Source of the DNA: Haloplasmatales bacterium 4B
GTDB lineage: Bacteria > Bacillota_I > Bacilli_A > Haloplasmatales > Haloplasmataceae
Length of the DNA stretch: 39,251 bases
Direction: 5' to 3'
Assembly (NCBI GenBank): GCA_003586005.1
Contig: NSKI01000022.1
Span: forward strand, 1-39,251
The notes beneath the pieces are model-generated. The model worked only from the letters and a program-made list of their open reading frames with translations, searched no databases and was not told the origin of the DNA. The first letter of the stretch is position 1. Each line of letters opens with the position of its first letter. Both the position numbers and the translations under genes were made by a program. Of this stretch, positions 30,391-36,850 are shown one piece after another.

Positions 30391-30420
30391 ATCATATTAC
30401 CAACATATATTTCATAAATT
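30391..30420 (+). promoter_or_regulatory. Sigma-E-like promoter of spoVID-ysxE
   Basis: ATCATATT (30391-30398), 14 bases, CATAAATT (30413-30420) fits the mother-cell sigma-E pattern (GTCATATT, 13-14, CATACAAT) at most positions. The start near 30427 lies just before the ribosome site at 30438. A CATAAAATA at 30364-30372 could be an additional sigma-K-type -10, with a poorer -35. spoVID is a sigma-E gene in B. subtilis. Confidence 0.6.
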
Positions 30421-30452
30421 ATAATGATAAAAAAAATTAGGAGATGAAAATA

Positions 30453-31214
30453 ATGAAATATACTATCCCATATGATGACAAAATAACATTACCTCATATT
30501 AAAAAAATTGACAGTATTGGAATTAACGCTGATAATTTGAATTACGATCAAAAAGAGTTATTAGGTGAGGTTATTATTTCTGGCGAATATTTACTTGACA
30601 ATAGTAAAGATATTATGGAATTTAGCCATGATATCCCTGTTTCATTTTTAATTGATGATGAGACTATTTCACCACATGTTAATATATCTAACTTTAAATA
30701 TGAATTAATTCCCGGTAGGGGAATTGAAGTTATGTTTGACTTAGATGTTATTCTTTCTGAGATAACAGAAGAAGAAAAAGAAAGCATTGCTCGTAGTTCA
30801 AAAAAATCTAACCACGACAAAGAGCTTATTGCTGAAAATATTGAAGAGGATGAAAAAGACAAATCTGATGAAGAGGAAATTAAGAAATTTCAAAATAAAA
30901 TCGATAATGATTTAGACGGTATTATTAATAGTCGTAATGATGCAGACGATACATTAGAATTAGAACCAATTGAAGATAATGATATTGATGATTTTGAATT
31001 CAATACTAATTTAATGCCAACAATGGAATCTTTTGATACAAGCTTTGTTCCAAGAGATAATGATAAATTTACGACTTATAAAATATTACTTGTAGAAGAT
31101 AATGAGAACATTGATGAGTTATTAGAGGCAAGGAATCTTCCAAAAGCATTAATTTGTAATGAATATAAATTTGATAAAAAGATTGTTTTAAAAATAGAAA
31201 ATGAGCAATTTTAA
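30453..31214 (+). CDS. spoVID: Spore-coat morphogenetic protein SpoVID-like
   Basis: About 253 residues. The N-terminal about 100 residues (IDSIGINADNL to YELIPGRGIEVMFDLDVIL) resemble the beta-rich N-terminal domain with which SpoVID encases the forespore. An acidic Glu/Asp/Lys-rich linker follows (about 105-200). The end (TYKILLVEDNENIDELLEARNL) looks like a divergent LysM module, as at the C-terminus of SpoVID. It is much shorter than B. subtilis SpoVID (575 residues). The place directly before ysxE and valS is the Bacillus order. AGGAG (30438-30443) suits ATG 30453, not ATG 30444. It overlaps ysxE by 14 bases. Confidence 0.8.
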   Translation: MKYTIPYDDKITLPHIKKIDSIGINADNLNYDQKELLGEVIISGEYLLDNSKDIMEFSHDIPVSFLIDDETISPHVNISNFKYELIPGRGIEVMFDLDVILSEITEEEKESIARSSKKSNHDKELIAENIEEDEKDKSDEEEIKKFQNKIDNDLDGIINSRNDADDTLELEPIEDNDIDDFEFNTNLMPTMESFDTSFVPRDNDKFTTYKILLVEDNENIDELLEARNLPKALICNEYKFDKKIVLKIENEQF

Positions 31215-32169
31215 TCAAGCATTAATTGATCATATTGAAAAGAGTTATAATCTAAAAATTGTTCAAATTGTCCCAATAAATGGAATATTAAAAATTAAAA
31301 CTAAGAAAAAAAAATATTACATATTGAAAGAAACTAGTAGAAAAGAAGTAGTGGATGTTTATTATTTTCTATTATCACAAAAATTTTCTAATTTTATTAT
31401 GCCAGAATTTACTGTTTACAAGCAATTGTTTACAAATTTTGATAATCAAATTTATTATTTGTTGCCATATTTAGATGATATTGATTATCCAACTGAAAAA
31501 AAACTAATTGATTATATTGACTTATTATATAAATTACATCAAAAAACAACCATTAGGAAAAGGTTTAATAAAACTCAATTTAATCGTTTGTATAAAAAAA
31601 AGTTAAAACAACTAGAAAGACAGTTTCAACTTTTAGATTATTATATTGTCGAATGTGAAAATAAAGAATATAAGTCAGTGTTTGATTGGACTTATGCAGT
31701 TAAATATTATGAAATAATGTATATTAAAAATATCGTTTTAAAGCTACAAACACAAATTGATGAATTAGTAGAAAATATAGATAAATATGATTATTGTATT
31801 ATCCATAACAATCCTAGTATTGATCACTTTGTTGTAACAAATGAATTGAACTATTTAATTAGTTTTGATTATAGTACAATTAGTTTTAAAGTCCATGATT
31901 ATATAAAATTGTTTATTGATTATAGTGAATATGAAGTAGATTGGTTATCTTTAATTATTAATGATAATGTTTCTAAATTTGAATTTTACTATTTTATATT
32001 TAATGTATTGTTTTATATCATCAAAAATTTTGAAATAACATTCTTAAGCAAAAATAATAATTTAGAGTCAATTAATATTTTAATTCATAATTTATATGTT
32101 GCCTCAAAGGCAATTGAGTTATACCAAAAATATGAATCAATAGAATCTTCTACCGAAAAACAAGAATAA
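31201..32169 (+). CDS. ysxE: YsxE/CotS-family spore-coat protein (kinase-like fold)
   Basis: A 322-residue member of the CotS/YsxE group, related in fold to aminoglycoside phosphotransferases. The motif IIHNNPSIDHFVV (about 202-214) stands where kinases have HxDxxxxN: the Asp is replaced, so catalysis is doubtful, as in YsxE. An N-lobe-like start (KIVQIVPINGILKIKTKKKKYYIL, written here only as a region, residues about 18-41) precedes it. It is encoded in the same transcript as spoVID with a 14-base overlap and no clear ribosome site, so translation is probably coupled. It is expected to act in coat assembly around the forespore. Confidence 0.82.
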   Translation: MSNFNQALIDHIEKSYNLKIVQIVPINGILKIKTKKKKYYILKETSRKEVVDVYYFLLSQKFSNFIMPEFTVYKQLFTNFDNQIYYLLPYLDDIDYPTEKKLIDYIDLLYKLHQKTTIRKRFNKTQFNRLYKKKLKQLERQFQLLDYYIVECENKEYKSVFDWTYAVKYYEIMYIKNIVLKLQTQIDELVENIDKYDYCIIHNNPSIDHFVVTNELNYLISFDYSTISFKVHDYIKLFIDYSEYEVDWLSLIINDNVSKFEFYYFIFNVLFYIIKNFEITFLSKNNNLESINILIHNLYVASKAIELYQKYESIESSTEKQE

Positions 32170-32298
32170 ACATTCAACCATTAGTAAAATAATAAATAAA
32201 ATGAAATTTACTGTTGTAAAACAAAAGATCATCAATAAAAATTGATATACACAAATAACTGTGCAATAACTTAATAAACAATTTCTTCTACGATACAT
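32137..32298 (-). CDS. Small Cys-rich membrane protein, candidate late-sporulation gene
   Basis: This 53-codon frame runs on the minus strand from ATG (32298-32296) to TGA (32139-32137). AAAGGAG (32313-32307) lies 8 bases upstream, a strong ribosome site. The product begins MYRRRNCLLSYC and ends FFGRRFY, with a hydrophobic middle long enough for one or two membrane segments and five cysteines (7, 12, 16, 25, 41). Upstream lies a sigma-K-like promoter. Its 3' end overlaps the convergent ysxE end by 33 bases. No homologue is recognised, and coding is inferred from ribosome site, promoter and composition. Confidence 0.6.
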   Translation of the reverse strand: MYRRRNCLLSYCTVICVYQFLLMIFCFTTVNFILFIILLMVECLFLFFGRRFY

Positions 32299-32325
32299 TT
32301 TTTAAACTCCTTTCAATCTATATAA

Positions 32326-32353
32326 TATTTTATGATTTAATGATAAAATGTGT
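32326..32353 (-). promoter_or_regulatory. Sigma-K-like promoter of the small membrane protein
   Basis: On the minus strand ACA (32353-32351), 16 bases, CATAAAATA (32334-32326) matches the sigma-K pattern (AC, 16 +/- 1, CATANNNTA). The start near 32318 leaves a short leader ending in the ribosome site at 32313-32307. Confidence 0.5.
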
Positions 32354-32402: not shown

Positions 32403-32420
32403 AATATAAAGTATTAATAA

Positions 32421-32636
32421 CTGTGACCAGGAGGAGTAAAAATATGCTTCTTTATAGAGAAGAACTGTTTGGTGGAAAGTTCTAAGAAAGTATTTTGAAG
32501 GTAGCCTGTTGAGTTGGTGTTATGAATTTAGTAGTAATATCCGTTCTCCGCGTTAAGGATTAGAGTTGGAATTATTTATAATTCAATTAGGATGGTACCG
32601 CGAGATTAGTCGTTCCTTTATGGAGCGATTTTTTTT
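32421..32636 (+). promoter_or_regulatory. T-box riboswitch, valine type
   Basis: The conserved T-box sequence AGGATGGTACCGCG is at 32589-32602 and is followed by a terminator (32610-32616 with 32622-32628, then eight T). Stem I starts near 32421 with GACCAGGAGGAGTA (AGTA element) and carries GGTGGAA distally. CTTC (32447-32450) pairs with GAAG (32497-32500), which places GTA (32501-32503), a valine codon, as specifier. Uncharged tRNA-Val should therefore turn on the GNAT gene and valS downstream. Confidence 0.93.
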
Positions 32637-32655
32637 ATATTTGGAGGCGATACGC

Positions 32656-33255
32656 ATGGATATAAAATTACTAAAAATGCCTATTATTGAAACTAAACGG
32701 CTTTTGTTAAGGCCAGTGAATATTAATGATGCTGCTGACATGCTTGAATATGGAACAGATCCGATTGTTACTAAGTTTTTAAGTTGGGAACCATATGAAA
32801 CTTTGGAAGACGTGTTTAACTCATTACAAAATTATTTCTTTAAGCGAATTGAAAATAACCTCCCTGAAGCACAGGCAATAATATTAAAAGCAGAAAATAA
32901 AATGATTGGTTTATGTGATTATGTTCAATTAGATACTAAAAACTATTGTGGTGAAATTGGCTATTTACTAAATAGACTATACTGGGGGAAGGGGTATATG
33001 GTTGAAGCGTGTCAAGAAGTAATTAAATTAGGTTTTGAGCGTTTTAACCTAAAGCGTGTTCAAATCTCACATGATGTAAACAATTATCAAAGTCAAAGAG
33101 TCATTAAAAAACTAGGCTTTACTTTTGAGGGCATTAAACGTAATGGTTTAGTAAAATGGGATGGGACAATTTGTACACTAAAAACATATTCCATAATTCA
33201 AAAGGAATTTATTAACAAAGAATTACCATGGCAAAAAAAACAAGAAAAGGAGTAA
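32656..33255 (+). CDS. GNAT acetyltransferase, RimJ/RimL type
   Basis: A 199-residue N-acetyltransferase. The opening IIETKRLLLRPVNINDAADM, the central GEIGYLLNRLYWGKGYMVEA (acetyl-CoA-binding motif A with GKGYM) and VNNYQSQRVIKKLGF (motif B) are typical of enzymes that acetylate ribosomal-protein N-termini or amino acids; the substrate is unknown. ATG 32656 has TTGGAGGCGA upstream. The frame is open back to 32566, but that stretch is the T-box RNA. It lies between the T-box and valS, 3 bases before valS, so tRNA-Val charging controls it. Confidence 0.9.
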   Translation: MDIKLLKMPIIETKRLLLRPVNINDAADMLEYGTDPIVTKFLSWEPYETLEDVFNSLQNYFFKRIENNLPEAQAIILKAENKMIGLCDYVQLDTKNYCGEIGYLLNRLYWGKGYMVEACQEVIKLGFERFNLKRVQISHDVNNYQSQRVIKKLGFTFEGIKRNGLVKWDGTICTLKTYSIIQKEFINKELPWQKKQEKE

Positions 33256-33258
33256 TTT

Positions 33259-35966: not shown

Positions 35967-36254
35967 TTGGAAAGCATATGGATTATATATATTAGTTTAT
36001 GTCTGGGAATATTAATTGGTGCCCTAAATATTATTCCTAAAAAAATTATTGTTTATAATGAAAGATTAACTTTGATAGGAATATTTTCGTTATTATTTGT
36101 TATGGGATTAAGTATAGGTAGTAAGAAAGATATTATAAATAATCTACATCAGGTAGGTTTGATAGGTTTAATGTATGCTTTTTTTTCTGTTTTATTTAGT
36201 ATTATAACTGTTTATCTTTTAACTACAGTTATTTTTAGGAGGAAAAATAAATGA
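35967..36254 (+). CDS. lysO: LysO-type lysine exporter, N-terminal subunit
   Basis: A 95-residue membrane protein with three hydrophobic segments (about 4-22, 36-52, 62-88). The arrangement LTLIGIFSLLFVMGLSIGSKK is that of the N-terminal third of LysO (YbjE), the lysine exporter of E. coli. The start is TTG 35967, 8 bases after AAAGGAG; no ATG is available near it. The stop overlaps the next start (ATGA), so the two chains are made together and probably form one transporter. The pair adds to about 294 residues, the length of one-chain LysO. Confidence 0.8.
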   Translation: MESIWIIYISLCLGILIGALNIIPKKIIVYNERLTLIGIFSLLFVMGLSIGSKKDIINNLHQVGLIGLMYAFFSVLFSIITVYLLTTVIFRRKNK

Positions 36255-36850
36255 AAATGACAATTTATATACTCGTTTTAGTTATTATAGGAATATTTTC
36301 TGGTTATTTTTTCCTCGGAAATGAAGTTAATAATTTAGATATATATATATCAGTTATTTTAAATATTACAATCTTTTCAGTAGGAATTACTTTGGGTTTA
36401 AATAAAAAAATATTTAAAGAATTAAAAAAAACAGGAAAGAATTTATTGTTATTACCTATTGGTACAATTATAGGTAGCTTACTAGGGGGATTAGTTACAG
36501 GAATACTAATAAATCACTCGTTAAGTTTAAGTTTAGCAATTGCATCAGGTTTTGGCTGGTATAGTATTTCAGCAGTTATTTTAACTGAAAATGCAGGTGT
36601 AGAAATTGGTAGTATTGCATTTATTACTAATGTTATTAGAGAAATGATGGCTTTCTTATTTATTCCAATAGTAGCTAAAAAATTAACGCCATATACAGCT
36701 ATTTGTATAGGCGGTGCGACAACAATGGATACAACATTACCACTAATAACAAAGTCAACTAATGAAAAATATGCATTAGTTTCATTTATACACGGTGGGG
36801 TATTAAGCTTTCTTGTTCCTGTGCTGGTGCCTTTTTTCGCAAGTATATAA
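36251..36850 (+). CDS. lysO: LysO-type lysine exporter, C-terminal subunit
   Basis: A 199-residue membrane protein with about six segments that corresponds to the rest of LysO. GFGWYSISAVILTENAG and IGGATTMDTTLPLI are the conserved family motifs that line the transport path. ATG 36251 has AGGAGGA upstream, at the end of the first gene. Two-chain forms are found in other Firmicutes to my knowledge, so this is not simply a frameshift: the ATGA overlap and own ribosome site argue for a genuine two-gene arrangement. The substrate is predicted to be lysine or a related amino acid. Confidence 0.85.
   Translation: MKMTIYILVLVIIGIFSGYFFLGNEVNNLDIYISVILNITIFSVGITLGLNKKIFKELKKTGKNLLLLPIGTIIGSLLGGLVTGILINHSLSLSLAIASGFGWYSISAVILTENAGVEIGSIAFITNVIREMMAFLFIPIVAKKLTPYTAICIGGATTMDTTLPLITKSTNEKYALVSFIHGGVLSFLVPVLVPFFASI

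Follow-up and report, generated by a model that had tools for sequence, protein, structure and literature searches.

A candidate family of small membrane proteins of the late mother-cell sporulation programme, encoded antisense to the 3' end of ysxE in Haloplasmataceae and other Bacilli

SpoVM and CmpA are tiny sporulation proteins of the mother cell that were overlooked by gene finders; both are products of sigma-E and neither is known to form a membrane hairpin. A small membrane protein of B. subtilis, YszA, which we take to be uncharacterised, is presumably encoded between ysxE and valS, and dpaA of the same organism is a sigma-K gene. BofA is a two-helix sporulation membrane protein, which inhibits SpoIVFB (PMC9042235). 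Promoters of the sigma-E and sigma-K type have a common -10 box and are told apart by a single base of the -35 element: sigma-K promoters have C there, sigma-E promoters T (PMC517825). In B. subtilis spoVID and ysxE are under the control of sigma-E, and the spores of ysxE mutants are more sensitive to lysozyme and hypochlorite (PMC2860764); those of B. anthracis ysxE transposon mutants look normal yet fail to mature (PMC12700454).

The window analysed here, a stretch of 39,251 nt from Haloplasmatales bacterium 4B (contig NSKI01000022.1), contains an open reading frame of 53 aa (MYRRRNCLLSYCTVICVYQFLLMIFCFTTVNFILFIILLMVECLFLFFGRRFY), which starts with ATG, runs antisense to the end of ysxE and has its 5' end facing the side of a T-box (Table 1). 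The initial annotation of this stretch had described the frame, a well-spaced ribosome-binding site (RBS), a basic-hydrophobic-basic layout with five cysteines and an upstream sigma-K motif, and our analysis recovered all of them: RRR occupies positions 3–5 and RR positions 50–51, the cysteines are residues 7, 12, 16, 26 and 43, and the promoter reads ACA-N16-CATAAAATA. The overlap with ysxE comprises the last 33 nt of the small ORF, stops included, and the gene order spoVID-ysxE-valS is present in the window and in several relatives. A gene for a GNAT-type acetyltransferase lies between the T-box and valS in the window (32414–33258 region) and in the related genome G003 (L043), and because of this position it is apparently under T-box control in two genera; in the relatives G001, G002, G006 and G007 valS directly follows the T-box. 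On the 3' side of valS, two adjacent short membrane ORFs of the window (95 and 199 aa, 35967–36850) resemble a split lysine-exporter-type (LysO/DUF340) protein, a name given by eye only. A second sigma-K-like site (35993–36020, minus strand), within the first part of the gene that follows valS, has no plausible target frame and was taken as a chance match.

Table 1. Features of the small gene and its surroundings (window coordinates)
Feature	Position	Strand	Basis
53-aa ORF, predicted small two-helix membrane protein	32137..32298 incl. stop	-	sequence, relatives, selection, AlphaFold
RBS AAAGGAG, 8 nt from ATG of the small gene	32307..32313	-	sequence; retained in relatives
-10 element CATAAAATA, sigma-K/sigma-E type	32326..32334	-	motif and conservation
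-35 element ACA; base discriminating sigma-K from sigma-E is C	32351..32353	-	motif and in-lineage comparison
Complete promoter of the small gene	32353-32326	-	
Antisense overlap of the 3' ends of the small gene and ysxE	32137..32169		
ysxE, spore-coat pseudokinase, conserved neighbour	31201..32169	+	
spoVID-ysxE promoter CAT-N17-CATAAATTA, sigma-E base; in-lineage yardstick	30393..30421	+	
T-box	32414-32620		

Six further genomes of the Haloplasmataceae have an orthologue at the same place, antisense at the 3' end of ysxE; among the named carriers of the gene are MAGs of Haloplasma contractile and of an uncultured member of the Haloplasmataceae. The protein search of relatives gave same-place copies with 58–67% identity in G006, G003, G001, G002 and G007, and at this position G005, whose YsxE is only 44% identical to that of the window, contains a divergent copy (profile E-value 3e-19, G005 itself having been part of that profile). 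The RBS is kept in all seven Haloplasmataceae genomes and so is the -10 element CATAAAATA, in the form CATACAATA in G007. Synonymous changes far outnumber non-synonymous ones, also in the segment outside ysxE. Within the family, the best pair for purifying selection shows 17 synonymous changes versus 1 non-synonymous, and dN/dS ranges from 0 to 0.42 among close pairs and stays below 0.45 wherever it is computable. The initial annotation had named synonymous-biased conservation in related genomes as one check, and loss of the frame or of the ribosome site in sister species as the sign against its proposal; such conservation is seen in sister genera and, since the same-place orthologues keep the RBS, the -10 box and the reading frame, the small ORF is not a product of chance. 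On these comparisons it is almost certainly a real coding gene. No family matching its product was identified in Pfam, NCBIfam or PDB, in agreement with the earlier proposal of an undescribed small membrane protein.

The promoter match is weak by itself (17 matches in the whole genome versus 11 for the reversed control), so the promoter call rests on conservation. Across the class, CATAnnnTA precedes the start codon by 12–50 nt in 34 of 46 members (2000 shuffles gave 1.3 on average and 7 at most), it is present in all seven Haloplasmataceae members, and it usually stands directly 5' of AGGTGA(T); AC occurs 15–17 nt upstream of CATA in 25/39 members. The discriminating -35 base is C in 7/7 Haloplasmataceae; as exceptions in the -35 region, the spacer of G005 is one nucleotide shorter and G002 and G007 exhibit TC instead of AC. 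As 7/39 members have only AT at this position, and in view of the TC of G002 and G007, sigma-E may contribute as well. For comparison within the lineage we used spoVID as the sigma-E yardstick because the spoIVA promoters, with few CATA boxes, were unclear; the spoVID promoters, read from printed sequences, exhibit CAT-N17-CATA with the T base in 7/7 genomes, and the C base of the small gene passes this comparison. In almost every genome examined, AC[CA]-N16-CATAAA[AC]TA precedes the dpaA-like gene, and the genome from which the window comes possesses sigK and sigE/G-like genes. Taken at sequence level, this makes control of the small gene by sigma-K very likely. Just upstream of the small-gene promoter, G007 has an inverted repeat, AATGACCTTGACAACTTAATCAAGGTCATT (L006; less regular in L005), a putative terminator or operator for which no equivalent was seen in other genera.

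The distribution of the family was analysed in 73 non-identical ysxE loci, with a profile iterated over all short frames on both strands within 1 kb from the end of ysxE, which yielded 46 matches in 45 of the loci, every one antisense and none sense. In class-wide searches, the seven-sequence profile gave weak matches, many of them exactly 3' of and antisense to ysxE, and a 37-member profile, built partly from the searched genomes so that those matches are non-independent, identified 57 of 296 genomes at E <1e-5, clearly set apart from the matches that rank below. Strong matches occur in seven families (f1, f3, f5, f10, f11, f18 and f21); eleven genomes were gained in the class-wide search, each with an adjoining ysxE-like frame, and every genome with a strong match carries ysxE itself or a diverged version of it. 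No member was detectable in about 18 of the 58 ysxE genomes in the sample, including all members of f13 examined, hence the small gene is not indispensable for sporulation everywhere. There is one strong copy per genome, plus a single broken extra copy in G151 (contig C4), which is interrupted by a stop codon, lacks a recognisable start and was excluded from the member set. No relative was found among the viral contigs searched, and a search of the plasmid collection with an f11 YsxE gave no match. A phylum-level search with YsxE returned no genome above the cut-off that B. subtilis passes, Bacillus seemingly being outside the sample.

This distribution bears on the possibility that the gene encodes a hydrophobic peptide akin to type I toxins, restrained by an antisense RNA. 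Size, basic ends and hydrophobic core are similar to those of such peptides, but where type I toxins would be expected to be patchy, mobile and independent of developmental genes, the gene is found mostly at one locus over seven families and in ysxE genomes only, and a single strong copy per genome behind a developmental promoter makes a toxin very improbable. Or perhaps the RNA is the main product, a sigma-K transcript that runs antisense into ysxE-spoVID and shuts off the sigma-E coat operon late, the frame being incidental? The overlap with the 3' end of ysxE in 36 of 46 members, the opposed sigma-E and sigma-K promoters, and the fact that no intrinsic terminator was detected between the two genes or just past the small ORF on its strand are what such a mechanism would call for. 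However, purifying selection acts at the codon level also outside the overlap, ten of the 46 members do not overlap ysxE at all, and the copies of G057 (L227) and G199 (L228) lie away from it, next to uvrB-like or ligA-like genes (neighbours named by eye), with the frame, the RBS and the -10 box intact and the CATAnnnTA/AGGTGA start retained in both. The displaced copies argue that the protein and not antisense pairing is the product under selection, and we regard a purely RNA-based function as improbable; antisense damping of ysxE may be a by-effect.

The encoded proteins are typically ~50–75 aa long and have a very small conserved core. Among 37 members the only invariant residue is Q19, which is always preceded by Y or W, and N or D follows at +12 in 34 of them, giving the pattern [YW]Q-x11-N/D. 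The AlphaFold model built from the alignment (mean pLDDT 83, pTM 0.59) comprises two helices (aa 2–25 and 29–51) connected by a short turn; [YW]Q belongs to helix 1 and N/D to the beginning of helix 2. Going by this model, a helical hairpin in the membrane is a highly probable structure. The mean charge is +3.6 in the N-terminal tail, +0.3 in the turn and +0.8 at the C-terminal end. According to the positive-inside rule, the basic N-tail suggests that the N-terminus is in and, with two helices, the C-terminus as well. Members of the f10 lineage have a conserved CxCxxC(K) motif in the N-terminal tail, e.g. FFCKCNSCK or FFCRCRACR (L040, L051, L070, L092, L121, L126, L142, L228, L230, L231), which resembles a metal-binding knuckle and is lacking in all non-f10 members. 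The initial annotation had offered two options, a small coat protein cross-linked through cysteines or a spore-membrane protein. The five cysteines of the window copy, the neighbouring coat operon and the sigma-K-type promoter could be read in favor of the former, but no cysteine column is conserved, the members have from 0 to 6 cysteines (5/37 have none), and those present fall within the predicted membrane helices. The alignment thus largely refutes cross-linking into the coat, to which we assign a minimal likelihood, and it is the membrane option that is favoured, since the hydrophobic core of ~40 residues is predicted to form a helical hairpin.

Taken together, we propose, with a probability of roughly 0.78, that the small gene represents a family of small membrane proteins of the late, sigma-K-dependent mother-cell sporulation programme. 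The protein would be produced in the mother cell once sigma-K is active and would insert into a membrane such that both termini face the cytoplasm of the mother cell; the outer forespore membrane, plausible for a sigma-K product, is the probable place, with about an even chance of being the actual one, and the mother-cell membrane is the other candidate. As a guess, [YW]Q of helix 1 and N/D of helix 2 could bind a membrane partner or a second copy of the protein, which may take part, as a micro-subunit or a regulator, in a late step such as the attachment of the coat, the loading of dipicolinate or the maturation of the spore; the assignment to any particular one of these steps is doubtful. 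The most far-reaching version, an undescribed late mother-cell micro-subunit of the Haloplasma/Turicibacter side of the Bacilli, whose invariant intramembrane aromatic-Gln and following Asn hold together a conserved complex of the outer forespore membrane that spores need to mature, is speculative and rather unlikely to hold in full. The linkage with ysxE most likely stems from an old compact pair of sporulation genes.

If correct, this prediction extends the set of late mother-cell genes in poorly studied spore formers, e.g. the relatives of Haloplasma, by a candidate from an old family that extends over seven bacterial families, has a tiny nearly invariant core ([YW]Q-x11-N/D) and is missing from Pfam and NCBIfam. 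The locus would also be a clean example of a sigma-E gene and a sigma-K gene placed face to face. The ysxE mutants of B. anthracis and B. subtilis merit a second look if ysxE of these species is likewise overlapped by the small gene.

Its relation to YszA decides whether the family is without any name or has one but awaits characterisation. The small gene possibly corresponds to yszA of B. subtilis and would then be the Haloplasmataceae member of the YszA family. The presumed likeness, which covers gene name and position only, is that of a small membrane protein gene lying between ysxE and valS, and it is matched by the spoVID-ysxE-valS order described above; literature searches on yszA retrieved nothing relevant. 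We consider this assignment tentative, at slightly less than even odds; it is compatible with the sporulation membrane protein proposed here and concerns its novelty, not its mechanism. BofA, too, is small, belongs to the sporulation membrane and has residues that matter for its function within or close to a membrane segment, but the protein described here is shorter, its promoter is of the sigma-K type, and no member of the 37 matched the BofA model in a Pfam scan; given its promoter, it would be produced once the pro-sigma-K checkpoint, which BofA controls, has been passed. With SpoVM and CmpA it would have in common the status of a tiny mother-cell sporulation protein, but no sequence relation to either was seen. 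DpaA is an unrelated soluble enzyme, with which only the timing is in common; the geometry AC-N17-CATAAA[AC]TA is common to dpaA and the small gene in the same genomes.
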